Below, piece by piece: positions 3-19,612 of a DNA stretch of 25,473 nucleotides. Both the position numbers and the translations under genes were made by a program. Within the stretch, counting starts at the first letter, position 1, and each line of letters opens with the position of its first letter. The stretch lies in IMG/VR virus record IMGVR_UViG_3300030101_003549, positions 1-25,473 of that record. The stretch is one strand, 5' to 3'. The stretch is from a virus. Below the pieces are notes generated by a model. It did not search any database. It saw only the letters and a list, made by a program, of their open reading frames with translations, and was not told the DNA's origin.

Positions 3-566
3 CTTGAAAAGATTGGTTCAAGAGTTAACAAATCATGTGGGTTACATGTTCATGTTGGTGTTTCAGATTGGAAGATCAAAGAATTCAGAAACCTTTTCAA
101 GCGTTACATAAAGTTTGAAAGTGCAATTGATTCTGTAATGCCAAATTCTAGAAGAGGAAGAAACAATGAGTATTGTATTCCAGTACTTGGGATCACTAGA
201 TTGAAACAATCATTTGAAGCAATTGATGATTGTAGATCAGCTAGACAAATTTCAAGTTTGTTAAGAACTAGATATACAAAACTAAACATCAAGTCTTTCT
301 GGAAACACGGAACTGTAGAGTTTAGACACCACAGTGGTACAACTGATGTAGAAAAGATTATGAACTGGTTAAAGTTTTGTTTAACAATGTGTCAAGCAGC
401 AGATCAACATAGAGCAATCAAAGTGAAAGAAGATGACAACAGATTGGATTACACAGATAAAATTGCACTTATGTTGAAGGGTTTATCAAAGGTCAAGAAT
501 TCATTGGTTGACAATGATGTTAGAAAATACTTTATTAAAAGAAGGAGACAGTTATGCACAAGTTAG
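3..566 (+). CDS. Amidoligase-family enzyme (GS-like COOH-NH2 ligase), 5' end outside window
   Basis: The reading frame is open from base 3, so the N-terminal part lies upstream; 187 residues are visible. The motif CGLHVHVGVSDW (about visible residues 12-23) and the later VEFRHHSGTTD followed by a helical segment (KIMNWLKFC) are hallmarks of the amidoligase_2 family, which has a glutamine-synthetase-like fold and joins an amine to a carboxylate using ATP. In phages and bacteria such enzymes often sit beside a gamma-glutamylcyclotransferase, and that is the case here (796-1266). The likely role is to attach or recycle a glutamyl-type amide on a peptide or surface polymer; the substrate cannot be read from sequence. 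It overlaps the next gene by 13 bases, so the two are translated as a unit. Family assignment is fairly sure, reaction is inference. Confidence 0.82.
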   Translation, partial: LEKIGSRVNKSCGLHVHVGVSDWKIKEFRNLFKRYIKFESAIDSVMPNSRRGRNNEYCIPVLGITRLKQSFEAIDDCRSARQISSLLRTRYTKLNIKSFWKHGTVEFRHHSGTTDVEKIMNWLKFCLTMCQAADQHRAIKVKEDDNRLDYTDKIALMLKGLSKVKNSLVDNDVRKYFIKRRRQLCTS

Positions 567-795: not shown

Positions 796-1266
796 ATGTT
801 TTACTTTGCCTACGGTGCCAATCTTAATTTAGAAAACATGAAGGGAAGATGCCCTAATGCTAAGAAGATTGTGAAATTTACTTTGCAAGATTACAGATTA
901 GTTTTCAAAGGTGTTGCAGATATTGAGTATCACAAAGGTTCAAGCGTTGAAGGTGTTCTTTGGGATATTACAAATAAGTGTGAACATGCACTGGATATCT
1001 TTGAAGGGTTTCCAATACTATACAGAAAAGAATATTTCACTATCAAAATGACTGGACAACTAGCACATGATTTTGGAAAAACAGCTGATGTTATGTTCTA
1101 CACAATGAACAGAAGTGAATATGGTGAACCTATGAAATCATACTTTGATTGTATTCTGCAAGGGTACATTGCAAATGAATTAGATACAGACTACTTATGG
1201 GATGCATTACTTCATGCAGAAGACAACCATTCTTTTGGTTCTTATGAATCTAAGAGTTGGAGATAA
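796..1266 (+). CDS. Gamma-glutamylcyclotransferase (AIG2/GGCT-like)
   Basis: The 156-residue protein opens with YFAYGANL, the GGCT signature loop that binds the gamma-glutamyl group, and carries LDIFEGFPILY with the expected catalytic glutamate (E70). GGCT enzymes release 5-oxoproline from gamma-glutamyl amines or peptides. Together with the upstream amidoligase this forms the make/break pair seen in several phage and bacterial gene neighbourhoods: one enzyme forms a gamma-glutamyl-type amide and the other removes it. The length is normal for the family. The AAGGTGG stretch just before ATG 796 serves as ribosome binding site. It is the last gene of the plus-strand operon and is followed after 28 bases by a strong hairpin. 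The exact substrate is unknown. Confidence 0.85.
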   Translation: MFYFAYGANLNLENMKGRCPNAKKIVKFTLQDYRLVFKGVADIEYHKGSSVEGVLWDITNKCEHALDIFEGFPILYRKEYFTIKMTGQLAHDFGKTADVMFYTMNRSEYGEPMKSYFDCILQGYIANELDTDYLWDALLHAEDNHSFGSYESKSWR

Positions 1267-1369: not shown

Positions 1370-1906
1370 TTAATCAAATTCCCTTTTTCCTGTATCAGGC
1401 ACCCAACCCTTAGAAAATTCCTCTTGACTCCCTTTTTCAGTCATAGGACGGTAATCATATAACCTATCTACTTCCTCTTGTTCCATGCCTAGAATGTTTA
1501 TGAGTTCTTCATCTGTGTAATTATGTTTATCTTTCATTTTACGGACAATATCAGTCATAGGAATTATTCCATGATTACCACGTGCTCTATTATGAATGAT
1601 TGTTGCAGCAATTTGTTGTGCTTCATCAACTGCATCTTCTAAAAAAACCACAGGCACAAAACCATCTGTTAATTCAGCAATATCTGAATCAGCAGATACA
1701 GTCCACCTATGAAAACCATCTACTATTTCAAATGACTTACGAATAACAATTGGTTGTGTCCACCCACAAAGTTTGATTGATGTTTTTAAAAGTTCTAATT
1801 CAGTTGGTGCAACCCTATTAGGATTGTAGTCATTTGCCTTTAGCTTTGATCTTTTAACCCATTGCATTTGATTTATAGGTTGATTGTCTTTACCTTTTTT
1901 TACCAT
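1370..1906 (-). CDS. ParB/IbrB-like protein
   Basis: A 178-residue protein of the ParB N-terminal (sulfiredoxin-like) fold. Visible signatures are the N-terminal NPNRV segment, IVDGFHRW (equivalent of the ParB GEHRxR box) and HNRARGNHG, the last typical of the IbrB group. A C-terminal helix-turn-helix-like region contains LGMEQEEVDRLY. I start it at base 1906 because a strong ribosome binding site (TGAGGAGGAAAG) precedes that ATG; longer readings run deep into the upstream gene. It overlaps the end of the PP-loop gene by 17 bases, so the two are translationally coupled. IbrA/IbrB-type pairs (PAPS-reductase-like plus ParB-like) recur in phages and genomic islands; a role in nucleic-acid modification or regulation has been suggested, but the function is not established. 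Confidence 0.8.
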   Translation of the reverse strand: MVKKGKDNQPINQMQWVKRSKLKANDYNPNRVAPTELELLKTSIKLCGWTQPIVIRKSFEIVDGFHRWTVSADSDIAELTDGFVPVVFLEDAVDEAQQIAATIIHNRARGNHGIIPMTDIVRKMKDKHNYTDEELINILGMEQEEVDRLYDYRPMTEKGSQEEFSKGWVPDTGKREFD

Positions 1907-3104
1907 ATCTTTCCTCCTCATATGCTTTTTTACTTTGTAAATACTTTTCATTATCTGCTGTAAAGTTCGGAATCTTTCTGCCTTTGAAATCTCCACGCAT
2001 TGCAATACGAAGAAGAAACTTCCAACCAATACCACTTTCATGGTGGTGTGTTGACAATATTGGATCAGATGTTTTTTTATTATGTACACGTATAAAATCG
2101 TTTATAACTTTTGCTATTTTTGATTTATGTGGTTCAGGGTGTTTGTCTAAAAAATATTGGATAAATTCAGGCCATGATGTATCTTTTGGTTTATCTGGTA
2201 ATCCACCAAAAGCATAAAGTTCTGTATTGGCGTATCTTGCTGCAGTTGCACTTCCTGGCACTCTGCTTTGCATTTTATCCCACAAATCTGGGAAAGCTAT
2301 TGAATATTGCCAAAGACCACGCATTGGCTCTTCACCATATGGAGGTGCACATCTTTGCTGTAAGTGAGTCAGCCCTAGCTTTTCTAATATGTCATAGGTA
2401 ATGTTGTAATCCCAACCAAACTTTTGTGGTGCAGTCCAAACATCTACTGTCTTCATATCATAGATGGGGCAAACCTTAACAACATTTGCTAATGCAGTTT
2501 TTGATTTTAGGTTTATCATATAATCTTCATACCTTTTGCCACTTGTTTGTAGTATTGTTCTGTACCTCATTAAACTTTCTTCTGATCTTATTCCCATAAT
2601 TACACCAACCTCACCCCACTCCTGTGGTGTAAATAACAGACCATTACATTCTGGAACTGATGGTCTTTCTTCTTTTTTTCTTGGAAATATTGGAAAATCA
2701 TCAAGACCAAGCACAGATTCATGTGTTGGATATGGTCTTGTCCACTTGTCTTGATCTTCTGGTGCCCAAGGATACCAGAATGGGTGATTGCGACTACATC
2801 CATTTCTGTGTTTTACTGGTAAACACAACCAGTTCATTTTTACTTCTGGAAGGTCTGCAACTCTTGTTACATAATCAATTGTTTCATATGGGATTGCTTC
2901 TTCATCAAAGAAATAAACATGCAAAGGTAATTTGTTTCTTTCCTTTGCTACTTGTAAAGCTAAGTTAAGACATACAGTTGAATCTTTTCCACCACTAAAC
3001 ATAACAACAACATTATCAAAAATGTCATACGTTCTATTAATTCTTTCTATTGCTAAAGTATAGACATCTTTGTCTATATCCTTTTTTTTGAATACTTGGC
3101 TCAT
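1890..3104 (-). CDS. PP-loop ATP pyrophosphatase, PAPS-reductase-like (IbrA/DUF3440-like)
   Basis: The 404-residue protein has the PP-loop SGGKDS at residues 37-42, the AMP-forming ATP site shared by PAPS reductases, thiouridylases and DndC. Downstream are Trp-, Pro- and Cys-rich stretches (NGCSRNHPFWYPW, QRCAPPYGEEP) and GIRSEESLMR, like the GxRxxES motif of the PAPS-reductase superfamily. Length and these features fit the IbrA/DUF3440 branch better than assimilatory CysH, which is shorter and ends in a catalytic ECGxH motif not seen here. A likely chemistry is adenylation, or sulfur/nucleotide transfer, to an unknown substrate. The ribosome binding site AGAGGA precedes ATG 3104 and overlaps repeated element A, which could mask it. 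The partner is the overlapping ParB-like gene downstream. Confidence 0.83.
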   Translation of the reverse strand: MSQVFKKKDIDKDVYTLAIERINRTYDIFDNVVVMFSGGKDSTVCLNLALQVAKERNKLPLHVYFFDEEAIPYETIDYVTRVADLPEVKMNWLCLPVKHRNGCSRNHPFWYPWAPEDQDKWTRPYPTHESVLGLDDFPIFPRKKEERPSVPECNGLLFTPQEWGEVGVIMGIRSEESLMRYRTILQTSGKRYEDYMINLKSKTALANVVKVCPIYDMKTVDVWTAPQKFGWDYNITYDILEKLGLTHLQQRCAPPYGEEPMRGLWQYSIAFPDLWDKMQSRVPGSATAARYANTELYAFGGLPDKPKDTSWPEFIQYFLDKHPEPHKSKIAKVINDFIRVHNKKTSDPILSTHHHESGIGWKFLLRIAMRGDFKGRKIPNFTADNEKYLQSKKAYEEERYGKKR

Positions 3105-8625: not shown

Positions 8626-8899
8626 AAGAAAACCAACAATGCATGATTGTATCTATATGGCGATGTCTAGAGGTCATTGGTGGACGCCACAAGAACTTAA
8701 ATACTTCATTGCCAACAACTTTCAAAAATCATGTAGTGAAAGTGGATTGACTGCAGGAATGCGTGATTTTAGAAAACAAGAGTATAGGGAAAAATATAAA
8801 TTGCCTTTAGATTGTGAAGTCTTAGAAAAGAAAAGATCATATCAAAAAAGTAATTTATGGAAATATAAATTGATTATTACTAGGAGTAAAAATGTCTGA
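8618..8899 (+). CDS. Hypothetical HTH-like protein
   Basis: A 93-residue basic protein, unrecognised. The GTG start at 8618 is chosen because GAAGGT precedes it by about 7 bases and it gives a short overlap with erf; an in-frame ATG lies at 8639. The N-terminal half (MHDCIYMAMSRGHWWTPQEL, then a second helix and SGLTAGMRDFRKQ) looks like a winged-helix DNA-binding domain. The lysine-rich end (KSNLWKYKL) fits nucleic-acid contact. It lies between the annealase and a possible SSB-like protein, so a role in recombination or replication is plausible. It has no catalytic motif. Confidence 0.7.
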   Translation: MSKRKPTMHDCIYMAMSRGHWWTPQELKYFIANNFQKSCSESGLTAGMRDFRKQEYREKYKLPLDCEVLEKKRSYQKSNLWKYKLIITRSKNV

Positions 8900-9284
8900 A
8901 TGGGAAAAGAAAGAGAAAGAGGGAACATTACACATTGATGGTAATGCCCAAATAATTAGAAAAGGTAGTGTGTTGTGGAAAAAAGCCACTCCAAATGATA
9001 CAAAAGATGAAATGCGATATCTTAGTATTATTGAAAGTGAAAACAACAAGGGTGAAAAAAAACTTGAACTTGCAATGTCAGTTGGTCTTATATTTGTTAA
9101 TAATAATAAGATAGACAAAGACAGTCCTGATATAAGTGGTGGCGTGACTATTGATGGTGAACGTTACAAATTCTATGGACGAAAAAGAGAAAGCAACAAA
9201 GATGGAACACCATTCACTGCATTCCAACTTGTAAAGGTTGAAGAAAGTGTTGCAAATGAAAATGATGATCCACTTCCATTTTAG
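8892..9284 (+). CDS. Possible SSB-like DNA-binding protein with acidic DDPLPF tail
   Basis: A 130-residue protein with a charged, beta-rich body (GTLHIDGNAQIIRKGSVLW, LELAMSVGLIFVN, GERYKFYGRKRE) and an acidic linker ending in ENDDPLPF. That tail closely resembles the C-terminal tip of single-strand binding proteins (DDDIPF in E. coli SSB), which recruits partner enzymes. It lies downstream of an exonuclease and annealase, the usual site of a phage SSB. I cannot confirm an OB fold by eye, so SSB is an inference; it could also be another replisome-binding protein. AGGAG lies about 5 bases before ATG 8892, and the start overlaps the preceding gene by 8 bases. Confidence 0.68.
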   Translation: MSEWEKKEKEGTLHIDGNAQIIRKGSVLWKKATPNDTKDEMRYLSIIESENNKGEKKLELAMSVGLIFVNNNKIDKDSPDISGGVTIDGERYKFYGRKRESNKDGTPFTAFQLVKVEESVANENDDPLPF

Positions 9285-9293
9285 GAGAACGCA

Positions 9294-9581
9294 ATGAGTA
9301 ATAAAAAAATCAAGTTAGTAAGCAAGAATAAAGTTACACCAACTGATAGTGCACTTACAGATACGCAATATTCAATACAGATACCAAGAGAAAAACTTCT
9401 TGGCTTGGTTGAGTTATGTAATGATCTCAGAAGGACACATAACTGTATCATGGAGTGCAATGATCTTTGGATGTCAGATGTCAAAAACATAGATAGAACA
9501 GTACACGCAATTGTTGATATACTTGATCTGGAATATGATTCAGAAAGTTATGATTACGTACTGAAATGGCAAAAAGATTAG
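9294..9581 (+). CDS. Hypothetical protein
   Basis: A 95-residue protein, unrecognised. A strong ribosome binding site (AGGAG at 9283-9287) precedes ATG 9294. The N-terminus is basic (SNKKIKLVSKNK); the rest is mostly helical and acidic, with two Cys (ELCNDLRR, CIMECNDLW) and a possible coiled or bundled segment. It has no signal peptide or membrane helix. It overlaps the HNH-type gene by 16 bases, so both are made together in the recombination operon. Function cannot be inferred beyond that context. Confidence 0.7.
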   Translation: MSNKKIKLVSKNKVTPTDSALTDTQYSIQIPREKLLGLVELCNDLRRTHNCIMECNDLWMSDVKNIDRTVHAIVDILDLEYDSESYDYVLKWQKD

Positions 9582-9924: not shown

Positions 9925-9961
9925 TTGCAATTGTAAACAAGTTTGCTATTATAAACATATG
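9925..9961 (+). promoter_or_regulatory. Extended -10 promoter with leaderless-type start, copy 1
   Basis: TTGCAA (9925-9930), a 16-bp spacer ending in TGC, and TATTAT (9947-9952). Six bases later comes ATG (9959), in frame with the Shine-Dalgarno-preceded ATG at 9983. The block from GTTTG through TATTATAAACATATG to ATTTTGAAAA is repeated with one change at 15842-15873, also upstream of a small gene. Confidence 0.68.
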
Positions 9962-9982
9962 AATTTTGAAAAAGGAGAAAAA

Positions 9983-10344: not shown

Positions 10345-10508
10345 TGAATACAGTATTATTAGAACTAATAGAAGATTTACAAAGGAAGTATTGCAATCTA
10401 GATTTGATGTATTGCACCTTTCAAGAAATGGAAGATGAACTTGATCAAGATGATTGGGAGCTTCTATGCTACGTTATGAAATATGGTAAGAAACCAACAA
10501 TTCACTAA
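10344..10508 (+). CDS. Small hypothetical protein, 54 residues
   Basis: ATG 10344 overlaps the preceding stop (TAATG), and the frame runs 54 residues: MNTVLLELIEDLQRKYC, a middle acidic helix (QEMEDELDQDDWELL) and KYGKKPTIH. It is amphipathic and helical with an acidic centre, without signal or membrane segments. Translational coupling to the preceding small gene, and the absence of competing frames, support it. Function unknown. It is followed by a 72-bp leader that can form a pseudoknot before the next gene. Confidence 0.6.
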   Translation: MNTVLLELIEDLQRKYCNLDLMYCTFQEMEDELDQDDWELLCYVMKYGKKPTIH

Positions 10509-10523
10509 GCAGAAGTAGTGATC

Positions 10524-10577
10524 GTGTGGCACTGTACCTCCAAACTCAAAATGCAGTGCCATACACTTTGAGGGATT
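10524..10577 (+). promoter_or_regulatory. Possible RBS-masking pseudoknot in the leader of the next gene
   Basis: TGGCACTG (10527-10534) pairs perfectly with CAGTGCCA (10554-10561), extendable through GTG/CAC with a two-base bulge. The loop base run CTCAAA (10545-10550) pairs with TTTGAG (10567-10572), which includes the Shine-Dalgarno GAGGG of the gene starting at 10581. This H-type pseudoknot would hide the ribosome binding site. There is no T run, so it is not a normal terminator. I cannot match it to a known riboswitch. Confidence 0.5.
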
Positions 10578-10580
10578 TAT

Positions 10581-11084
10581 ATGATAAAGATTGAAAAAAA
10601 TATACCTTTACCTAGTAAGCACAAAAGAGCTATACGTGAAGAACAAAGAAAAGAATTAGTAAAATTAGAAGTTGGTGATTCATTCATTGTAAAAAATATA
10701 TCAGCTGTTCAACAATATTTAAGAGCAGGTAAAGATGAAGGTATGGTTATGACTTCAAGAAAAAATTATACTGGTCCAAGAAAAGACCAATTTAATTTTA
10801 GAATGTGGTATGAAAGACCAATGACTGATGTTGAACTTGCAGTACACAAACAAAAACAACTTGAATACTTAAATAGATATAAAAAACCAATTGTAAGTAA
10901 ATCAAAAGTAAATGGAAAACACACAGAAACAAAAGTACATGACACCTGTTATGGTTGTAATGAAAATATCTTATTGATTGCAGAATTGAAAGCAGAAAAT
11001 AAAAAGATTGTTGAGGATATGGAAAAGATCAACAAGATATTAATTGAAGAAAATGTTGGATGGAATAATTCCAAATTGAATTAA
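10581..11084 (+). CDS. Hypothetical phage protein with IEKNIPLP/VGDSF motif
   Basis: A 167-residue, lysine-rich protein. The N-terminus has KIEKNIPLP and, about 25 residues on, LEVGDSFIV, a pairing I have seen in many small phage proteins of unknown function. The middle contains RKDQFNFRMWYERP. After a Lys-rich linker come CYGCNEN, a single CxxC pair, and a C-terminal helical coiled-coil-like segment (LIAELKAENKKIVEDMEKI). That pattern suggests dimerisation, perhaps with nucleic-acid binding. Translation starts after GAGGG and may be controlled by the upstream pseudoknot. It is the first gene of a small set that includes an XRE regulator and two zinc-finger-like proteins. Confidence 0.72.
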   Translation: MIKIEKNIPLPSKHKRAIREEQRKELVKLEVGDSFIVKNISAVQQYLRAGKDEGMVMTSRKNYTGPRKDQFNFRMWYERPMTDVELAVHKQKQLEYLNRYKKPIVSKSKVNGKHTETKVHDTCYGCNENILLIAELKAENKKIVEDMEKINKILIEENVGWNNSKLN

Positions 11085-11095
11085 AGGAGAAAATT

Positions 11096-11332
11096 ATGTT
11101 GGATAGAATTATGACTGGTGATGAATTAAAAAAACTACGTTCAGAGTATGATGTTACACAATCTGAGTTAGCAAGTTATCTTGGTTACATTTCAAATGGC
11201 AAACCAAATAGATCAATGATTGCTAGATTTGAAAACAATCATGCTGTTATAAACCCAAGAATTAGCAGATTGATACAAAATTATTTTATGGAATTCAATA
11301 GAGTTGAGGAGTTTGAGCATGAACCACAATAA
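11096..11332 (+). CDS. XRE-family helix-turn-helix regulator
   Basis: A 78-residue protein with a complete XRE HTH: MTGDELKKLRSEYDVTQSELASYLGY, then PNRSMIARFENNHAVINPRISRLIQNY. Position of the VTQSELASYLG and SMIARFENN helices fits helices 2 and 3. A strong AAAGGAG precedes ATG 11096; a second ATG at 11111 is possible. It lies in the middle of the small-gene set, away from the divergent promoter region, so it is more likely a middle or late regulator than the main lysogeny switch. The C-terminal tail is acidic (EEFEHEPQ) and overlaps the next gene start. Confidence 0.85.
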   Translation: MLDRIMTGDELKKLRSEYDVTQSELASYLGYISNGKPNRSMIARFENNHAVINPRISRLIQNYFMEFNRVEEFEHEPQ

Positions 11333-11570
11333 GGAAGCAATACGTCTTAAGAAACTAAGAGAAAGACAATTCAAAAGAATTAGAGGTACAAGATGCCAAG
11401 TTTGTCATTCTACAAATTGGGGATATGCCAGAAACACTGGTGAATTTTATTGTATTGACTGTAATCATTTATGGGAAGATGAAATATTAAAATGGGCAAT
11501 GCAACCAGTTTTAAATGCAGATAAGCATGTTAACAAGTTAATCAAAGACCAACAGGAAAAAGAGAAATGA
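11319..11570 (+). CDS. Zinc-ribbon protein
   Basis: An 83-residue protein. I start it at ATG 11319 because GAGGAG (11306-11311) is well placed; an upstream TTG at 11304 would place the site inside the gene. After a basic N-terminus (RLKKLRERQFKRIRG) comes a zinc ribbon with CQVC and, 16 residues later, CIDC (CxxC pairs), flanked by aromatic residues. Such proteins commonly bind nucleic acid or RNA polymerase. The C-terminal part is helical and Lys/Glu-rich. It overlaps the XRE gene by 14 bases and the next gene by 4 (ATGA). Confidence 0.78.
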   Translation: MNHNKEAIRLKKLRERQFKRIRGTRCQVCHSTNWGYARNTGEFYCIDCNHLWEDEILKWAMQPVLNADKHVNKLIKDQQEKEK

Positions 11571-12577: not shown

Positions 12578-12958
12578 TTAATAATCCCCCCAAGTTTTTG
12601 TTTTTTTGCCGCCCCAATATTCAACTGCATGACCTTCTTCAATAAGCAGTTTGCAAATATCTTCATTCTTTTCTGTATATGGAATAGCAAGAATTCTTCC
12701 GAATTTGCCACGACCAAGAGATTTGATTTTGAGAGTTTCTCCACATAATTCTGTTAGTCTTGCTTTTGCTTCAAGACCTAGTTTTTTTTCAGCTAGGTCT
12801 CTAGTTCTGGATTCAGGAGTGTCTATTCCTGCCAACCTGCAGCGTTGTTTTTTTAGAAATACATTGAATCCCAAATCCAGAGTAACATCAATCGTATCAC
12901 CATCAATAACCTTTTCTAAGATAGCGTTATAAACAAATGGCTCAACTGTTGATGACAT
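12578..12958 (-). CDS. Thermonuclease-like protein (SNase domain)
   Basis: A 126-residue staphylococcal-nuclease-fold protein with all expected residues: VIDGDTIDV (D19-D21), CRLAGIDTPESR (R41, D46, T47, E49) and GKFGRILA (R88), matching R35, D40, T41, E43 and R87 of the model enzyme. It should cut DNA or RNA with calcium. Unlike secreted SNases it has no signal peptide, so it likely acts in the cytoplasm, perhaps degrading host nucleic acid, or is released at lysis. It sits between a small membrane protein and endolysin in the lysis block. No clear Shine-Dalgarno sequence precedes ATG 12958. Confidence 0.92.
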   Translation of the reverse strand: MSSTVEPFVYNAILEKVIDGDTIDVTLDLGFNVFLKKQRCRLAGIDTPESRTRDLAEKKLGLEAKARLTELCGETLKIKSLGRGKFGRILAIPYTEKNEDICKLLIEEGHAVEYWGGKKTKTWGDY

Positions 12959-12965
12959 ATATTAA

Positions 12966-13130
12966 TTATTGTTTTGCTTTACCTATGTTAAGAGCAAGCA
13001 TCTCAATTAATTTATATAGTTTTCCGATCATTTGATCATCCTTTGGTGTTGGCGTTAAAGCACAGACTATTGATGCGGCACATACAACTCCTGTTACTAT
13101 TCCCAACCATTCTCCTATCATTCCCAACAT
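12966..13130 (-). CDS. Small membrane protein in lysis cluster
   Basis: A 54-residue protein starting at ATG 13130 behind GAGGAGG. The N-terminal half is a hydrophobic helix (EWLGIVTGVVCAASIVCAL, about 7-25); the rest is a soluble basic tail with TPTPKDDQMIGKLYKLIEML and GKAKQ. One membrane span, small size and a position between spanins and endolysin fit a holin or antiholin, but the positively charged C-terminal tail and single span do not prove it. I recall similar small proteins (TPTPKDD followed by GK-YKLIE) in other marine phages. The ribosome binding site is strong, so it is probably well expressed. Confidence 0.75.
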   Translation of the reverse strand: MLGMIGEWLGIVTGVVCAASIVCALTPTPKDDQMIGKLYKLIEMLALNIGKAKQ

Positions 13131-13169: not shown

Positions 13170-13553
13170 TTATTCTTCTTCTGACGAATTTTTATCATCA
13201 TCATATTCTCTATAGAACTCTATTATTGAAAGTGTATCTCTTATATACCTTTTAACTTCTGCCATGTTCATTGATAGGTTTTCATAATCTTTAGATGTTA
13301 AAGAATAATAAGCAGTTTCAGGTGCAGAGCCATTGTCAATCTGATTGAGATATTCTTGCATTAGTTCTGGAGTCAATATTTCCCAATCAATATCCACAAG
13401 TTGAACTTCCATCGGAAGTGGAGGATGATACATTGGCATCGGCTCTGCGATTGTTACAACTTCAACAGGTTTACTTTGTATTAAGGGGAACGAAGTGCAT
13501 CCTGTTAGAGCTATAACAAAAAAACTATGAATTATTGTCTTCATCTGTTTCAT
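13170..13553 (-). CDS. Outer-membrane lipoprotein, probable o-spanin (Rz1-like)
   Basis: A 127-residue lipoprotein. The N-terminus MKQMKTIIHSFFVIALTGC is a lipoprotein signal with lipobox ALTGC; ATG 13544 (MKTII) is an alternative start. After cleavage, the Pro-rich segment EPMPMYHPPLPMEV follows, as in many o-spanins, then WEILTPELMQEYLNQ. It overlaps the end of the i-spanin-like gene in a different frame, the classical Rz/Rz1 arrangement. The pair should bridge inner and outer membranes and disrupt the outer membrane at the end of lysis. At this length it is bigger than lambda Rz1, so it may have an added domain. Context supports spanin strongly; sequence alone is moderate. Confidence 0.75.
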   Translation of the reverse strand: MKQMKTIIHSFFVIALTGCTSFPLIQSKPVEVVTIAEPMPMYHPPLPMEVQLVDIDWEILTPELMQEYLNQIDNGSAPETAYYSLTSKDYENLSMNMAEVKRYIRDTLSIIEFYREYDDDKNSSEEE

Positions 13554-13935
13554 CAAATTGATTGGGGTTTGTAAGTGCAATAAGTTCGTCTTTGACTTTC
13601 TTAGTTCCTTTGTTGACTATGTTTTCTATAAGTTTAGGTTTGGCAAGTGCAAGATTATCAAGATTATGTTTTGCAAAAGTGTTCTTTAGTTTATTGACCT
13701 CTCTTTGTGCTTCTTGATTTTTTGCTGTAAGTGTATTTATTTGTTCTTGGGTTTTTTGTTGCTTTTCTAAATTTTGTTTTATCTTGGCGTTTTGCTCTGC
13801 TATTTGTGTTTGTAAGATTTGAGCATTAGCTTTGAGTGTGGATATGTTGTCTTGAAGTCGGTCTATATACCAAGCTGAACCTGCTATGCTTGAAAACAAT
13901 AATCCACCTAGAATTAGATTGAGCTTGAGTCCCAT
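13525..13935 (-). CDS. Inner-membrane spanin (Rz-like i-spanin)
   Basis: A 136-residue protein with one N-terminal membrane helix (LNLILGGLLFSSIAGSAWYI, about 5-24) and then a long periplasmic coiled coil (QDNISTLKANAQILQTQIAEQ onward to about residue 90) rich in Gln, Lys and Asn. This is the standard Rz architecture. The end overlaps the lipoprotein gene, as in Rz/Rz1 pairs. The start overlaps the adenylate cyclase stop by 22 bases, so the cyclase and spanins are translationally coupled, which ties the signalling genes to lysis. Sequence conservation in spanins is low; the call rests on topology, coiled coil and gene order. Confidence 0.8.
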   Translation of the reverse strand: MGLKLNLILGGLLFSSIAGSAWYIDRLQDNISTLKANAQILQTQIAEQNAKIKQNLEKQQKTQEQINTLTAKNQEAQREVNKLKNTFAKHNLDNLALAKPKLIENIVNKGTKKVKDELIALTNPNQFDETDEDNNS

Positions 13936-15692
13936 GTATACACCTGTAATTTTTCTTTTTTACCTTTTGCCTTTATCGGTTTTAAAGGTATTAAATCAAA
14001 TTCTATAGCATTTTCAGTTGTTTGACCAATGAGAAGATCAACACCTGCATCTTTTGTCCCACTTTCAAGCCTTGCTGCAACGTTAACTGCATCACCAATT
14101 GCTGTGTAGTCAAACCGTTGTTCTGAACCCATATTGCCTACAATCGCATATCCTGTATTTATGCCTATTCCTATTTGCACAGGAGCAATGTCTTTGGATT
14201 GTAGTTCTTTATTAAGTTCTTTCATTCCGTTTTGAATGTCTATTGCACATGCAAGTGCTTTTGTTTCATGATGTCTTAAATCAAGAGGTGCATTGAATAT
14301 GGCCATCATTGCATCGCCAATATACTTATCAACCATTCCACCATTAGACTGAACTGCATTTTGTTGTACTGTGAGTGCTTTGTTCATAATATATGTTACT
14401 TTTTCAGGTTCTAAAGTTTCTGATAAAGAAGTAAAACCACGCACATCAGTGAACAAAAAGGTGCAGTATCTTTTTTCACCACCAAGTTTTAAAACTTCAG
14501 GGTTTTGTTGCAATCTTTTTACTTGTCTTGGGTCTAAGTAATGTTCAAATTGTTTCTTGATTTGTTGACGTAGTTTGTATTGTTCTCTAAATCTAAGATA
14601 AAAAGCTAAAGCACTTGTAATAAATTGTGAGATTAGTGTCCAAGTAACATCAACTAAATAACCTTTGTAAATAAGGGTATATCCACCAGATGCCACAGAA
14701 ACCATCAATAAAACACCTATACCTAAACCCCAAGTGACACCAAAAGAAGTCAATACAAGCCATGAGAGAGCTACAAAAAGCACAAATATAGCTACTTCAA
14801 GACCATAACTCCAATCTGGAACACTTGGAGAGTTTGGTATTAAAATTGATTCTGCAAGAGCAGTTTGTATCTTATGTGGTTCTAATAATCCAACTGGTGT
14901 TGCAATTTGTGGCATTATGCCTGTTGCAGTGAAACCAACAAAAACATATCGCCCTTTTACATCCATTTCTTCCAATGTAGTTTCTTTTGTATTTACCCAA
15001 GATATCCATTTCCTGCCCAAAGAATCAGTTTTTACTGGTGCAAGACCTTGTACAGTTATTTCTTCTATACCCAGATCATTTGTTTTTACAATATATGTAG
15101 TGTTACCTGCTAAGACCTTCATAACTTCTGTACCAAATGCAGATACAAAACCATCAGGTGTTCTAAGAAGCAAAGGTATTCTTCTTACAAGATTATCTAC
15201 TTCTGTTGGTGCAATTGCTATGCCTTGATTTGAACAGTTTTTTAAAATGTCTATATTTTGAACAACCCCTGTAGAATCAATCCCACCAACATTATTATTG
15301 CCTATGATTACAGTTCCAGATGTTTCTGGATAAACACCTTTCCCATCTTCATACATTGCTATGACACTTCCACCGTAGCAAAGAGCATTTGCAAAATCTT
15401 GATCGCCACCAAATCTATCTTCTTGTGGAAAAGCAAGAACCCAACCTACACCAAGAGCACCTTTTTGCAAAAGTTCAATATGGATTTCTGCAAGTCTTTG
15501 TCTAGATAAAGGATAACCACCCTCATTTTCTATATCTTGTTCTGTAATGTTAAGAATTGTAAAAAAACCAGATTCTTCATATTTGTGCACTAAACCGTCA
15601 AATGTTCTAAGTTTTATTACTTCTGTAAAGGTTGTTTGTAATAGTAATGGAGTGATTAATATTGGAAGTATTATGAATATTAATTTTTTCAT
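13914..15692 (-). CDS. CHASE2-domain membrane adenylate cyclase (class III)
   Basis: A 592-residue sensor enzyme. Residues 1-20 form an N-terminal membrane helix, about 25-290 a periplasmic CHASE2-type sensor, and about 296-368 three membrane helices. The class III cyclase domain runs from about 405 to 585. The active site is complete: metal ligands D416 (FTDVRGF) and D460 (YIGDAM), adenine-selecting K456 and T530, and transition-state residues N537 and R541 in GDAVNVAARLE. The K/T pair points to ATP, so it should make cAMP in the host cytoplasm in response to a periplasmic signal. In bacteria CHASE2 cyclases often neighbour FecR proteins, as here. A cyclase in a phage lysis cluster is unusual. 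No Shine-Dalgarno sequence is obvious at ATG 15692; the stop overlaps the i-spanin start. Confidence 0.93.
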   Translation of the reverse strand: MKKLIFIILPILITPLLLQTTFTEVIKLRTFDGLVHKYEESGFFTILNITEQDIENEGGYPLSRQRLAEIHIELLQKGALGVGWVLAFPQEDRFGGDQDFANALCYGGSVIAMYEDGKGVYPETSGTVIIGNNNVGGIDSTGVVQNIDILKNCSNQGIAIAPTEVDNLVRRIPLLLRTPDGFVSAFGTEVMKVLAGNTTYIVKTNDLGIEEITVQGLAPVKTDSLGRKWISWVNTKETTLEEMDVKGRYVFVGFTATGIMPQIATPVGLLEPHKIQTALAESILIPNSPSVPDWSYGLEVAIFVLFVALSWLVLTSFGVTWGLGIGVLLMVSVASGGYTLIYKGYLVDVTWTLISQFITSALAFYLRFREQYKLRQQIKKQFEHYLDPRQVKRLQQNPEVLKLGGEKRYCTFLFTDVRGFTSLSETLEPEKVTYIMNKALTVQQNAVQSNGGMVDKYIGDAMMAIFNAPLDLRHHETKALACAIDIQNGMKELNKELQSKDIAPVQIGIGINTGYAIVGNMGSEQRFDYTAIGDAVNVAARLESGTKDAGVDLLIGQTTENAIEFDLIPLKPIKAKGKKEKLQVYTWDSSSI

Positions 15693-15887
15693 GTTATATT
15701 TGCGTCAATCTTTATTAAAGATTTTTTCATTTATTTTGGGTGGTGTCAAAGTTCAAAACCTCAAAAATGTAGCACCACCCACCTCCAAAACCAGATAAAA
15801 AAGTTGTTTTTTTTTACATATAGACCTTGTATTTTTCTGTGTGTTTGTTATTATAAACATATGAATTTTGAAAATAACGAGGTAAAA
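15693..15887. promoter_or_regulatory. Divergent intergenic region with 9-bp inverted repeat
   Basis: This 195-bp gap separates the leftward cyclase from the rightward small gene. TGGGTGGTG (15737-15745) and CACCACCCA (15773-15781) form a perfect inverted repeat around 27 bases, with no T run on either side, so it looks like an operator or leader hairpin rather than a terminator. TTGACA is present on the minus strand (15749-15744) but no convincing -10 follows. The plus-strand promoter at 15827-15854 is clear. Confidence 0.5.
15827..15863 (+). promoter_or_regulatory. Extended -10 promoter with leaderless-type start, copy 2
   Basis: TTGTAT (15827-15832), 16-bp spacer ending TGT, TATTAT (15849-15854), then six bases to an in-frame ATG (15861). 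Spacer, -10, distance to ATG and the following ATGAATTTTGAAAA match the promoter at 9925-9961. The Shine-Dalgarno-preceded ATG is at 15888. Confidence 0.68.
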
Positions 15888-16181
15888 ATGAAAAAAGTAG
15901 AACAACTTAATATTAATAACTTTGAATGGACTGATGTATTGTTAATTCAAATGAAAGACAATAGATTTAGAGAAGTCATTGTTATAGACATTGATGACGA
16001 TATGTTTAGTTTTGATCTAGATACTACAGGCAATACAGGTGATGTTACTTTACAAGACATACATACTGGTGAAATCTTTGGTGCAAACCATGTAAAAGAT
16101 TTTTGGAATGATGATGTAAATGTTGCTTTTATGATTAGAAATACATTCTTAAATAGAATGCACGATACAGTAAGAGTATAA
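15888..16181 (+). CDS. Small acidic hypothetical protein, moron-like insertion
   Basis: A 97-residue protein starting at ATG 15888 after CGAGG; an in-frame leaderless-type ATG at 15861 would add nine residues (MNFENNEVK). It is acidic and looks beta-rich in the middle (VLLIQMKDNRFREVIVIDIDDDMFSFDLD), ending with a helical segment (NVAFMIRNTFLNRMHD). It is unrecognised. It is the only plus-strand gene within the leftward late block, and has its own promoter and a terminator (16203-16226), the signature of a phage moron. Its promoter-leader matches that of the small gene at 9983, so both are likely expressed at the same time. Confidence 0.75.
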   Translation: MKKVEQLNINNFEWTDVLLIQMKDNRFREVIVIDIDDDMFSFDLDTTGNTGDVTLQDIHTGEIFGANHVKDFWNDDVNVAFMIRNTFLNRMHDTVRV

Positions 16182-16202
16182 ATTACAAACTAAATACAAA
16201 TA

Positions 16203-16226
16203 GGGTGTAGCAATACACCCTTTTTT
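16203..16226 (+). terminator. Intrinsic terminator of the plus-strand small gene
   Basis: GGGTGT (16203-16208), loop AGCAAT, ACACCC (16215-16220), then six T residues. It overlaps the last codon of the convergent FecR gene and may slow leftward transcription as well. Confidence 0.82.
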
Positions 16227-17379
16227 AATTCTCTTGCCTTATTCTTATAACACTACTACTTCCACCATTTATTTTTATAGTTCTTGAAACTCCATCTTGG
16301 ATTAAGATTACTGTATAACTATCATCAGAATTAATATCAACCCTAGCAGTATTATTCACACTTCTTATAATCGTTAATTTTTCGCCTGTTATAAATGTAG
16401 TGATCTGTGTATCAAGGTCTTGACCAAAAGTTGTTCCAGACAATTGAACAGAACCAACATCTGCTTGTAGTTGATCTTCTTCTTCTTGGATTTCTAATTC
16501 ATCAAGAATATCTAACAAATCCTCAAGAAAATTTACATCCAGATAATTAATATCAAGTTCAGTGAATTCCAGATCAGACTCATTATCAAGCAAATCTTCT
16601 TCAAGGTAATCAACATCAAGATCATTAAAATCAAGAATTGAATTGCCTTTGCTTGAGTAAACAGTTTCTTCTTCTACAATCTTTTCTTCTGGTGGTGAAA
16701 CAATGAGAATGTTATCAATCAAATCCAAAGATAAATCAAGAATAACTGGTTTACTTGGTGCACTTTCAAAAACAGATACAGTGGTTGCTTGAAACGGTTT
16801 ATTGAGTATGACACTTCCTGTTGCTGTTATAACTTCTATTTCTCCACTTGATAAACCAAGAGAATCAGGCAAAAGAATTATTAAAGATTCACCAAGTTCG
16901 TTGACGGTTGCTGTAAAATCCGTTCCCCTGATTAGGATGTTTGCAGTTGGTGTTTTAAGAGTTACGTTTTTTTTATTTAATTTATCTACATTGCCAGAAA
17001 TAAATCTGGTCGTGCCAAGAGCAAAGGTAAGAGCCATTTTAGACTTTGAAGGATTTGGGTCATAAATATATTCATTAATTAATAATTGACTATGTTCAGT
17101 GAGTTTAACAATAGAATCGTCAAGAAACGTAATAGCCATACGACCATTAGATGTTATGGCTTCATCATTGCTTTGTATATCAAAATCTACAAAAGCATTT
17201 AAGGGTTCTTCCCTTATTATCTGTGCATTGCCTCTTAGTTCAGAAACATCTCCAATACTAACATCCTGTGCTTGTACCCTGATCGTTTTGATTGATACAA
17301 ATAGAAGAATTAGAAGTATTCGTGATAAGTTTAAGATAATCTCTTGCAAGTGTAGATGATTGTGTAATGTCAATATCAT
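16225..17379 (-). CDS. FecR-domain periplasmic protein with acidic LD-rich tail
   Basis: A 384-residue exported protein. Residues 1 to about 38 form a signal peptide with an unusually long N-region (hydrophobic LSRILLILLFVSI, cleavage near VQAQ). The FecR domain is visible in GDVSELRGNAQI, the SNGRMAITFLDDSIVKLTEHSQLLI strand set and TFALGTTRFISG through TPTANILIRGTDF. Beyond it lies an acidic repeat region (about 240-300) built on LD/DL units (FNDLDVDYLEEDLL, LDINYLDVNFLED), then a beta-rich end. FecR domains in bacteria act as periplasmic partners in signalling, often beside CHASE2 cyclases. The start ATG 17379 follows GGAAG by 6 bases and overlaps the curlin-like gene by 122 bases. The stop lies in a terminator stem. 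Confidence 0.85.
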   Translation of the reverse strand: MILTLHNHLHLQEIILNLSRILLILLFVSIKTIRVQAQDVSIGDVSELRGNAQIIREEPLNAFVDFDIQSNDEAITSNGRMAITFLDDSIVKLTEHSQLLINEYIYDPNPSKSKMALTFALGTTRFISGNVDKLNKKNVTLKTPTANILIRGTDFTATVNELGESLIILLPDSLGLSSGEIEVITATGSVILNKPFQATTVSVFESAPSKPVILDLSLDLIDNILIVSPPEEKIVEEETVYSSKGNSILDFNDLDVDYLEEDLLDNESDLEFTELDINYLDVNFLEDLLDILDELEIQEEEDQLQADVGSVQLSGTTFGQDLDTQITTFITGEKLTIIRSVNNTARVDINSDDSYTVILIQDGVSRTIKINGGSSSVIRIRQEN

Positions 17380-17983
17380 TTGAACTTCCGTCTAAATCTA
17401 AGTAGAAATATCCAGAATCAGCAGATGTTGTTCCTGAATAACCACTAGCTGTAAAATCTATCTCATTTGAGCTTCCATTTATATCAAGATAATTGATTGC
17501 ATTTTCATAATCAATATCAAAATTTAAAATGTTGCTATCTCCCAGAATTATCCAATCCAGATCAAGATAAGAAGAATCAGCACTCTCACCAATTTCTAGA
17601 TCAAACTCATTGCTTGAACCTGTAACATCAATATTCAGGTTAACGTAATCAGCACTTATTAATCCTGTGCTGTTCATCAGAATATCCATAATATTTGAAT
17701 CACCATCAAACTCAAAAAATCCAGTAAAGTTATCTCCATCAATTCCATCTGATCTAAAGACATTTGAACTTCCTATTTGGTTTATATCAAGCGTCATTGA
17801 AACACCGTCTAGGTCTAAAGCAGTCATTGTTCCTGAAACAGCAGAAGTTCCACCAATCAAGTTGGAAGAACCAAGTTGTTCAAGATCAACACTTGCTGAA
17901 TTACCAGATTGATCAACATATATTTCATTATCAGCAAAAACTGACAATGATAAAAATAAAATTAAATTTAATAATTTATTCAT
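17258..17983 (-). CDS. Curlin-like secreted repeat protein
   Basis: A 241-residue protein with a clear signal peptide (MNKLLNLILFLSLSVFA). The mature part has about seven imperfect repeats built on GSSN or GDSN followed by alternating hydrophobic and acidic residues, for example VDLEQLGSSNLI, LDINQIGSSNVF, IDVTGSSNEFDLEIG, LDINGSSNEIDF, LDLDGSSNDIDI. This is the strand-turn-strand pattern of curlin (QxGxxN) repeats, but much more acidic and with few Gln. It should be the export substrate of CsgG/CsgF encoded just upstream, giving a fibre or surface layer. A tail with two Cys (SICINQNDQGTSTGC) is odd for a curlin. CsgA or CsgB equivalence cannot be decided. It overlaps csgG by 8 bases and fecR by 122. 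Confidence 0.75.
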   Translation of the reverse strand: MNKLLNLILFLSLSVFADNEIYVDQSGNSASVDLEQLGSSNLIGGTSAVSGTMTALDLDGVSMTLDINQIGSSNVFRSDGIDGDNFTGFFEFDGDSNIMDILMNSTGLISADYVNLNIDVTGSSNEFDLEIGESADSSYLDLDWIILGDSNILNFDIDYENAINYLDINGSSNEIDFTASGYSGTTSADSGYFYLDLDGSSNDIDITQSSTLARDYLKLITNTSNSSICINQNDQGTSTGC

Positions 17984-18788
17984 ATTTCCAGTACCCTCTT
18001 TCGTAACCTATATTAATAAGTTCTAAAACTGCACCTTCTATTGCTTTCATTAATGCAAGAGTAGTGCTTTCATTTGAAGCAGAACCAATTTCTACTTCTA
18101 CAAGTTCAGTACCCATCTCTATGAATTTAAAAACGTCTGTTGACTGACCATAACTGTAAATTGTTTTTTGTGACATAACTTCAATGAGTATCTCACCTGT
18201 TGCAACTGAAACCATACGCAAACTTACAGTTACGGAATCTTCTCTATACTGCATACTTGAGCCGATTCCAAGATATCTTGCACCAACTCCACCAGTTGCC
18301 AAGTTACTATCATACGACACAACTGCACCTTCTAGCAACACACCTGCAAAAAGCAAAGGTGAAAGCACGTTATTATCATCTAATTGTTCTCTAGTTGATC
18401 TTATGAGTTGTCTCTCCTTTGTAAGGTTATCTAATCCAATTCTTTCAACCACACGAAAAAAATTGCCCCCTGATGCATGTTTCAAAGACCTTAATAATAT
18501 TGTATATGGTGCTTGTGTTATTGCAGATGAAAAAAGAGCAAACTCACTGTTACTTTTTCTTTGGCCTGTTTGATCTGTAAATGCAGTTGGGTAAACTGCA
18601 ACTACTGGTTTTACTATAGGTGCTTGAACATAAAGAAGTTGTTTTGACTGAAGATCAAAAATAGAGTATTTATTTAGTCCTTTGCTTTCAAACCTTTCAG
18701 GTCGTGTATCTTTGACTATATCAAAGACTGCACAACTAGAAAGAGAAATCACCAAGAGGCAATTCAATAACAGTCGTAGTTCCATCAT
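17976..18788 (-). CDS. csgG: Curli secretion channel CsgG
   Basis: A 270-residue outer-membrane lipoprotein of normal CsgG length (277 in E. coli). The signal ends with lipobox LSSC (C19). The match is clear from end to end: VYPTAFTDQTGQRK, FSSAITQAPYTILLRSL, NFFRVVERIGLDNLTKERQLIRS, then YDSNLATGGVGARYLGIG, the transmembrane-hairpin region VTVSLRMVSVATGEIL, and ASNESTTLALMKAIEGAV with a final RGYWKYE. CsgG forms a nonameric outer-membrane pore that exports curlins. Around the pore constriction, Phe is kept (FSSAITQ) but the preceding Asn is Leu. It overlaps csgF by 53 bases and the curlin-like gene by 8. The second Met (18785) is an equally good start. Confidence 0.94.
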   Translation of the reverse strand: MMELRLLLNCLLVISLSSCAVFDIVKDTRPERFESKGLNKYSIFDLQSKQLLYVQAPIVKPVVAVYPTAFTDQTGQRKSNSEFALFSSAITQAPYTILLRSLKHASGGNFFRVVERIGLDNLTKERQLIRSTREQLDDNNVLSPLLFAGVLLEGAVVSYDSNLATGGVGARYLGIGSSMQYREDSVTVSLRMVSVATGEILIEVMSQKTIYSYGQSTDVFKFIEMGTELVEVEIGSASNESTTLALMKAIEGAVLELINIGYERGYWKYE

Positions 18789-19281
18789 TTGAGTTAAAAA
18801 TTGTGAGTATTATCATACCATCAACAATCTCATAAGAAATTATATTGCCTTCTAATTCAAATGAACCTTCTGTTGACTGTGTCTCCCCAAACATGTTTTC
18901 AACAATCTGCCTTGATATCTGTGCATAAATACGACTCTCTAGGTTTCTAATGAACCTCGCTAAAGTTGTGTTTTCTGCATCTCTTTCAAGTTCATCTTGT
19001 AATGCTTTTATTTCTTCCTTGATTGTCATTTTTCGCATGTGTTCTTGGTTTTCAATCGTCAAGTAATGCGAACTTGTATTGACACCTGAAAAAGATGGAG
19101 ACTTAAATTTAAAGGTGATTTGATCTGCTTGTAGATTAACAGTAAGAATACCAATAAAAAGAAACACAGCAATGATACCCATTGCTATTGCAATACCTCT
19201 TTTTTCAATATTTTCCTGTGCAATCTTCAATTCTTTCTTGCTTGGTCTTCCTCTTTTTTTCTTAGTCTTTTCTTTGGTCAT
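18736..19281 (-). CDS. csgF: Curli assembly factor CsgF with N-terminal extension
   Basis: A 181-residue protein; E. coli CsgF has 138. The mature start DQITFKFKSPSFSG fits the CsgF peptide that inserts in the CsgG pore, and the end (LARFIRNLESRIYAQISRQIVENMFG, then NIISYEIVDGMIILTIFNSNDGTTTVIEL) matches the CsgF helix and beta domain. The N-terminus is odd: about 28 charged residues (KTKKKRGRPSKKELK) precede the hydrophobic IAIAMGIIAVFLFIGILTV. RGRP is the core of an AT hook. An internal ATG (MGIIAV) would give a shorter signal peptide but lacks positive charges. The Asn/Gly-rich linker of E. coli CsgF is replaced by a charged helix (about 80-105). The start overlaps the holin-like gene by 20 bases. 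Confidence 0.88.
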   Translation of the reverse strand: MTKEKTKKKRGRPSKKELKIAQENIEKRGIAIAMGIIAVFLFIGILTVNLQADQITFKFKSPSFSGVNTSSHYLTIENQEHMRKMTIKEEIKALQDELERDAENTTLARFIRNLESRIYAQISRQIVENMFGETQSTEGSFELEGNIISYEIVDGMIILTIFNSNDGTTTVIELPLGDFSF

Positions 19282-19612
19282 CTCTATCTGCCTTTGCTAT
19301 CTTGTTGCTATCAATAAGCTGTGGCACTCCTAAAATAGTTTTTATTAACGTATCTTGTCTAATGATTTCATTATCTAAGCTACGCACCCTATCTATCAAT
19401 GCTACTAAAATACCATGTTGGGAATCAAGTTTTGTGCCTAACCTTTCTTCCATCGCTGAAATAGATGTATTGACTTTATCATCAACAGTATCAAGTTTTG
19501 TCTCCATACCATCAATAATTCTGTTTATTAGCTTCCACACAAAAAGTCCTAGACCAAGTGCTGCAGCTATTGGAAAACCTAACTCGGTAATTAAAGCAAC
19601 TGCTGATTCCAT
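19262..19612 (-). CDS. Holin-like membrane protein with coiled coil
   Basis: A 116-residue protein with one N-terminal membrane helix (LGFPIAAALGLGLFVWKLI, about 11-29) followed by a long amphipathic coiled coil (ETKLDTVDDKVNTSISAMEERL onward). This layout fits hemolysin XhlA/BhlA-type proteins and several phage holin-like accessories. It lies just after the tail genes and just before csgF, and is the best holin candidate for the endolysin, together with the small protein at 12966-13130. The end overlaps csgF by 20 bases. No close family can be named from sequence alone. It starts 3 bases after the stop of the preceding small gene, with no strong ribosome binding site, so coupling is likely. 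Confidence 0.68.
   Translation of the reverse strand: MESAVALITELGFPIAAALGLGLFVWKLINRIIDGMETKLDTVDDKVNTSISAMEERLGTKLDSQHGILVALIDRVRSLDNEIIRQDTLIKTILGVPQLIDSNKIAKADRDDQRKD

Follow-up and report, generated by a model that had tools for sequence, protein, structure and literature searches.

A curli-type (type VIII) secretion gene module in marine phages

Three papers deal with curli genes in marine phages. Wittmers et al. (PMC9599517) reported a type VIII secretion system (T8SS) module from myoviruses and from nine podovirus genomes of HTVC023P type, and gave its order as one or two genes called 'HK' ('histidine kinase'), CsgF, CsgG, CsgA/B, FecR, often a second CsgA/B, and an adenylate cyclase, while Zaragoza-Solas et al. 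(PMC7029224) proposed sibling capture and Buchholz et al. (PMC9004378) a lysis pore. We analysed IMGVR_UViG_3300030101_003549, a linear sequence of 25,473 bases (hereafter the window) that is held as a virus record and carries tail and lysis genes of a phage. As in the module of Wittmers et al., csgF, csgG and a curlin-repeat gene (its repeat scoring below cut-off) stand together in it. This set is the phage T8SS module of pelagiphages and the core finding was already known; the curli-like genes of marine phages mentioned in an earlier note on this DNA are borne out by these papers. In our reading, to which we give a probability of roughly 60%, the module exports a curlin-like surface protein from the infected cell.

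The genes form a tight run on the minus strand, from position 19,612 down to 12,100, which encodes in order a small transmembrane (TM)/coiled-coil protein, CsgF, CsgG, a curlin-like protein, a FecR-domain protein, a CHASE2 cyclase, the spanins Rz and Rz1, a 54-amino-acid (aa) protein, an SNase-type nuclease and a lysozyme. The first five genes overlap successively by 20, 53, 8 and 122 nucleotides (nt); the earlier note had described csgF, csgG and the repeat-protein gene as overlapping. The order is the published one, with FecR and the cyclase following and no CsgE, and the two signalling genes, which had been thought to be among the less familiar parts, are already included in PMC9599517. The window differs from the published module in its siphovirus-type backbone, where myoviruses and podoviruses had been described, and in the first gene, which has no kinase domain. 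The CsgG, CsgF, FecR, CHASE2 and cyclase domains all pass the Pfam cut-offs; the curlin repeat remains below.

The same gene order is shared by the phages HTVC008M (SAR11) and Melnitz (OM43), whose CsgG proteins are respectively 51% and 44% identical to that of the window over 78% of the query. Unlike the window, these are myophages, and hidden Markov models (HMMs) of the lysis genes found no match within the 16.6 kb that surround the module in either HTVC008M or Melnitz-3. A Rhodobacterales curli operon, seen on two contigs of metagenome-assembled genomes (MAGs; L173 and L175), likewise has the csgF-csgG-curlin order, with CsgG 35-36% identical and one curlin HMM match followed by two similar-looking open reading frames (ORFs), but it shows no small TM, fecR or cyclase HMM matches. 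The phage module also departs from the canonical csg operon, since it has no CsgE and includes FecR and cyclase genes. When compared with the Escherichia coli structures, CsgG is alike over most of its chain and CsgF at the N-terminal pore segment, whereas the window CsgF is unmatched beyond that segment and residues at what we take to be the constriction loop of CsgG differ.

The pore proteins and the curlin-like protein

The outer-membrane lipoprotein pore CsgG (270 aa, positions 17976..18788, minus strand) is readily recognised by Pfam (PF03783, E 3.5e-47), and the lipobox noticed earlier from the letters alone is indeed visible, as is a core that reads TGGVGARY (in the note, SGGVGARY-type). 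A profile of its relatives matches solved CsgG over most of the chain (E ~2e-64). The lipobox pattern was found in 101 of 112 CsgG proteins (the window entering twice, and the record L004 included), and the five of the 11 misses that were displayed all have SSC. CsgF (181 aa, 18736..19281, minus strand), with a signal anchor and a basic N-terminal extension, matches PF10614 (7.8e-18). Its mature chain starts FKFKSPSFSG and matches solved CsgF at the N-terminal pore segment (E 0.006), and the motif of that segment is present in 105 of 105 complete CsgF sequences (the window counted twice through L001). The basic extension before the signal anchor contains RGRPS, and such an extension occurs in 44 of the 105.

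A 'complete' export set had also been announced; this description is not confirmed, since CsgE occurs in 0 of 21 related records and not among the window ORFs. When a phage collection was searched, CsgG relatives were found in seven records, namely HTVC008M twice, four Melnitz strains and one bacterial-looking record. The CsgG of L004 (OR851715), a 1.5-kb 'Salmonella phage' record that resembles host DNA, groups with a bacterial row on long branches.

Between csgG and fecR lies the gene for an acidic curlin-like repeat protein of 241 aa (17258..17983, minus strand), the likely substrate. From residue 19 onward it has 37 D+E versus 3 K+R, with G-x-x-N-like motifs spaced 11-33 residues apart, and its two C-terminal cysteines are conserved except in the myophage members of the family. 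Its structure model is all-beta (predicted local distance difference test, pLDDT, 78; predicted template modelling score, pTM, 0.76), and many of the PDB neighbours listed for it are beta-helix proteins, none of them significant. The secreted GSSN-repeat protein of the earlier note is present, but its match to Curlin_rpt (E 0.01) stays below the cut-off. The results support the view that the phage encodes CsgG and CsgF together with a curlin-like protein as their candidate substrate, on the strand that carries the genes from tail to lysis.

In the Melnitz-3 record two curlin-repeat proteins are annotated (8701-9420 and 10479-11495), though PMC9004378 states that csgA/B is missing. The C-terminus of the FecR-domain protein was also considered as a curlin repeat and rejected (profile comparison probability 5%).

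Constancy of the module and selection

Conservation of gene content was assessed in the best 80 of at least 599 viral loci found with CsgG, which were annotated with HMMs made from the window genes. Our csgG counts cover 83 loci, these 80 with the window, HTVC008M and Melnitz-3, after the removal of L004 and of L001, which is the window itself; loci chosen in this way leave out phages without csgG, and near-identical viruses may recur among them. A locus was said to have room for a gene when a set number of bases, fixed per gene, extended beyond csgG. Wherever there was room, every module gene was found: csgF in 76/76 loci, the small TM gene in 65/65, the curlin-like gene in 81/81, fecR in 75/75 and the cyclase gene in 54/54. 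In contrast, spanin matches were seen in 23 of 44 loci and GH24 lysozyme matches in 34 of 44, both being lower bounds because the lysis genes were sought solely with window-derived HMMs; for example, the locus L057 was scored as a miss and has another holin and endolysin directly after the cyclase gene. Since the six module genes are constant and the lysis matches are not, a role in lysis control, one of those suggested in the earlier note, is weakened.

The view from the spanins was complementary. Among the best 80 of 213 o-spanin loci (the CsgG, o-spanin and small TM sets share contigs), all six module genes were present in each of the 21 with more than 6.5 kb upstream, and in 59 of 61 the gene next upstream of the spanins was that of the cyclase. 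The exceptions, L130 and L138, have spanins without an adjoining module; for L130, the module lies at another place on the same contig (L032). In the window itself the spanins do lie downstream, as had been stated, but it is the cyclase gene that directly adjoins them.

The median ratio of nonsynonymous to synonymous substitution rates (dN/dS) was 0.077 for the small TM gene, 0.129 for the curlin-like gene, 0.177 for fecR, 0.179 for csgG, 0.211 for csgF and 0.216 for the cyclase gene, and 0.231, 0.303 and 0.379 for the lysis genes Rz1, lysozyme and Rz, respectively. These values come from pairs with dS of 0.1-1.2 among up to 45 distinct sequences of each gene, the first ones in the set, again after the removal of L001 and L004, with gene overlaps and small TM paralogues kept in. 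The curlin-like gene is under purifying selection like csgG (0.129 versus 0.179).

The small transmembrane protein at the head of the module

The first gene (19262..19612, minus strand) encodes a one-TM protein of 116 aa with a coiled coil; the complete relatives, about 81-125 aa long, likewise have a coiled coil, and their TM segment is N-terminal. It had been called holin-like, a label that our results do not support: neither a kinase domain nor a convincing holin match was found by Pfam in the window protein and 10 relatives, and the holin PHROG matches of the window protein are weak (E 0.03 and 0.093), although one Melnitz copy reached 0.00011 over 23 residues. When the phage collection was searched at E<=1, only HTVC008M and Melnitz records (6 records) were retrieved.

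A search with this protein alone, of which the best 80 of at least 594 loci were kept (2 of the 80 without room), showed csgF/csgG to be linked in all 78 loci with room, csgF adjoining in 77 and lying about 1 kb off in one, while no lysozyme match within 1.5 kb downstream and no spanin match within 1.5 kb was seen in these 78. HTVC008M and Melnitz-3 have two copies each, and the gene has the lowest median dN/dS of the nine compared. Because of this linkage, of the two copies in myophages that show no lysis matches, and of the low dN/dS, we assign the small TM protein to the module, an assignment based on sequence comparison. As one or two small TM/coiled-coil genes occupy the place of the published 'HK' genes, position and copy number indicate that this protein is probably the published 'histidine kinase', and either name, histidine kinase or holin, is a probable misannotation. 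The L057 locus has a separate recognised holin (GTA_holin_3TM, E 4.8e-14) beside a peptidase M15.

The FecR-domain protein, the cyclase and cyclic AMP

The FecR-domain protein (16225..17379, minus strand; PF04773 1.8e-8, PHROG 37870) is probably exported, and in alignment it has an acidic middle and a conserved C-terminal region. Downstream of it lies the gene for a 592-aa protein with a CHASE2 domain and a class III adenylate cyclase domain (13914..15692, minus strand), as identified by Pfam, by its catalytic residues and by its best solved relatives, which are adenylate cyclases such as CyaB. D416, K456, D460 and R541 are present in 94 of 94 distinct proteins and N537 in 93 of 94; we take these to be the two metal Asp, the adenine Lys, and the Asn and Arg of the catalytic site. 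The fecR-cyclase gap exceeds 150 nt in 27 of the 106 loci with both genes, and in HTVC008M and Melnitz-3 it is occupied by a second curlin-like gene. In the cyclases of L052, L149, L159 and L002, an alignment by eye shows a catalytic domain of another type joined to a common CHASE2 half, as if the output domain had been swapped.

The enzyme would make cyclic AMP (cAMP). As to putative hosts, HTVC008M infects Pelagibacter according to its record, and one module-bearing contig (L171) is binned in a Pelagibacter MAG. In the family of this MAG, cyclic nucleotide (cNMP)-binding domains were found in 4 of 79 genomes (completeness not stated) and CsgG in 2 of 79, both on phage-module contigs; a class III cyclase was found in 3 of 79, two on these same contigs and one below cut-off, the cyclase search covering class III only. 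No cNMP-binding domain was found in the 21 phage records. If the host is SAR11, the scarcity of these domains argues against a simple cAMP-CRP-curli reading.

The contigs L169, L170 and L171 are binned in Maricaulis, Neomarinimicrobiota and Pelagibacter MAGs, respectively, and in all three the phage module lies beside lysozyme matches and phage-like ORFs; they look like phage contigs.

Proposed function and alternatives

Late in infection, the module would probably be expressed along with the tail and lysis genes that share its strand. CsgG would then form a lipoprotein pore in the outer membrane, into which the start of CsgF would insert. The curlin-like protein would pass through this pore and become an adhesive fibre, assembled at or attached to the surface of the infected cell. 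The FecR-domain protein, in the periplasm or at the fibre base, might report to the CHASE2 cyclase, which would make cAMP. In the inner membrane, the module would have the small TM/coiled-coil protein as a component. The phage might gain by holding sibling cells or progeny together, or by blocking competitors. We prefer surface-protein export to a lysis pore because no locus with room has lost the curlin-like gene, because this gene evolves under purifying selection, and because the CsgF pore segment is invariably kept and the match of CsgG to the solved structure spans most of the chain.

Several observations weigh against this reading. The Curlin_rpt (PF07012) match of the window protein reaches 16.2 bits against a Pfam cut-off of 20.7, 19 of 30 curlin-like family members match this family at E<=1 (best 0.0018), 14 of the 30 also match DUF3060, and the structure model has no significant fold match in the PDB (best E 0.5). 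The dN/dS quartiles of the curlin-like gene (0.099-0.316) and csgG (0.139-0.204) overlap. The CsgE gate is missing in all 21 records, structure prediction for the FecR-domain protein was poor (pLDDT 46.9), the module of the related contig L169 includes no cyclase, and in a SAR11 host the cAMP would be made without a recognised receiver. Finally, Melnitz cultures showed no clumping according to Buchholz et al. (PMC9004378).

A different use of the same genes, in which the exported protein would be the input of a surface-sensing circuit and a FecR-CHASE2-cyclase relay would signal contact or crowding to the infected cell, is conceivable but doubtful. The constant presence of fecR and the cyclase gene where there is room and the conserved catalytic residues are in its favour, and the cAMP regulator Clr of Sinorhizobium is reported to have a FecR-domain gene as one of its targets (PMC5498481), though the same source found the expression of that gene in mature nodules to be largely clr-independent. 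The absence of cNMP-binding domains from the 21 phage records and their rarity in the genomes of the Pelagibacter MAG's family, together with the cyclase-less module of L169, speaks against such a circuit.

Slightly less probable, in our opinion, is the proposal of PMC9004378 that CsgG and CsgF are a repurposed lysis pore (a gated secretin or pinholin) that times progeny release, the curlin-like protein being secondary. It draws on the position of the module just upstream of spanin or lysozyme genes in many loci (23/44 and 34/44 as lower bounds, and 59/61 from the spanin side) and on L057, where the module adjoins another holin and endolysin. However, L057 has its own recognised holin, the PolA-bearing record (L130 and L032, one contig) has Rz/Rz1 far from the module, and no lysis HMM matches surround the module in HTVC008M or Melnitz-3. 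Moreover, CsgG spans the outer membrane and not the inner one, the curlin-like gene is present in all 81 loci with room with a median dN/dS not above that of csgG (quartiles overlapping), and the constancy of the other module genes would be unexplained.

The weakest proposal, an ungated CsgG that admits larger solutes or siderophores during infection (suggested in PMC7029224 and PMC9599517), is hinted at by the missing CsgE and by the iron association of the name FecR, but it is very improbable, since it leaves unexplained CsgF, the curlin-like gene and the cyclase, all present wherever there is room, Pfam gives the FecR domain as the sole domain of the FecR-domain protein, and curli-bearing Alphaproteobacteria are reportedly also without csgE (Dueholm et al., PMC3521004).

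We also put forward a tentative idea that we hold to be rather less likely than its being wrong: the small TM protein, single or as a paralogue pair, might be an unrecognised phage-specific inner-membrane secretion component, and the module might bring its own cAMP signal to hosts that have no curli or recognised cAMP pathway, forming a private, CRP-independent secretion-signalling device traded between long-, short- and contractile-tailed phages.

Phage lineage and signs of movement between backbones

The relatives G002 and G018 together carry siphovirus-type terminase, portal, head, head-tail adaptor, tape-measure and distal tail genes. Of 35 records, 16 have a match to the portal of G018 that spans at least 437 residues, and in another two the match spans about 110, while the podovirus-type portal of G014 matches 7 of the 35, none of them among the 18 with a G018-type portal. 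Twelve of the 35 records have a helicase at least 55% identical to that of the window; 11 of these have a siphovirus-type portal and none a podovirus-type one, and in two podovirus-type records the identity is just 33-37%. Judged by its helicase and by the portal and tail genes of its relatives, the window backbone is of siphovirus type, its structural genes lying mostly outside the record and tail sheath not having been searched. An HTVC023P-type assignment was considered and rejected: PolA was found in 1 of 21 records and the window has an O-like initiator and a primase/helicase, while the HTVC023P-type core includes a DNA polymerase (PMC9599517). Our limited literature search found no siphovirus case of phage curli, the three papers reporting myoviruses and podoviruses, and the siphovirus-type lineage adds to these known carriers of the module. 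No integrase was found in the 21 related records, which are fragments, so that this is weak evidence against a temperate life.

The CsgG tree mixes siphovirus- and podovirus-type rows, with at least 2 and at least 4 changes forced by supported branches, these labels resting on portal matches and 12 of the 40 rows being without a type. The supported set that includes the window has three podovirus-type rows and five without a type. These are signs that the cassette has moved between phage backbones and virion types. The bacterial and myophage rows have long-branch problems, and for this reason we claim no cellular origin from the tree.

Lysis neighbours and other features of the window

Downstream of the cyclase gene, on the same strand, are the lysis genes for the i-spanin Rz (13525..13935, PHROG 739) and an Rz1-type o-spanin (13170..13580, PHROG 812), followed by a 54-aa one-TM protein with a TPTPKDD motif (12966..13130, PHROG 9685, function unknown), an SNase-type nuclease (12578..12958, Pfam) and the GH24 phage lysozyme (12100..12744, Pfam). 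By its position alone, beside the lysozyme, the 54-aa protein is a holin candidate. The main text of PMC9599517 does not contain the words 'holin', 'spanin' or 'endolysin'.

Between fecR and the cyclase gene, outside the module, an ORF of 106 aa lies on the opposite strand (15861..16181, plus strand), with no relative among the other loci compared. It is headed by the second copy (15843-15874) of a 32-nt stretch whose first copy is at 9941-9972; the two are 97% identical, and each overlaps the start of a plus-strand ORF. A terminator-like hairpin follows the 3' end of fecR (16202..16221, both strands; a pattern only, 7 such sites versus a shuffle mean of 3.2), and upstream of the cyclase gene there is a promoter-like TTGACA-17-AAAAAT with TG (15721..15749, minus strand), also a pattern only, the promoter scan being at chance level (37 found, 36.3 expected). 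Neither the Rfam search nor a DNA-level search of phage records gave a match. A bacterial chromosome was rejected as the source, given the virus record and the phage tail, replication and lysis genes. Unrelated to the curli module are an amidoligase (3-566, plus strand, PHROG 2443), a gamma-glutamyl cyclotransferase (796-1266, plus strand, PHROG 2520) and a PAPS-reductase-like protein (1890-3104, minus strand, PHROG 2302).

Implications

Beyond the known module, what is new here is the reinterpretation of one component, a further phage lineage and the signs of exchange among virion types. Since the pore and the curlin-like gene are retained together, a role for a surface protein lends itself to testing better than a lysis pore does. 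If phages supply a streamlined ocean bacterium with a secretion system that it lacks, they could alter cell aggregation, co-infection and carbon flow.

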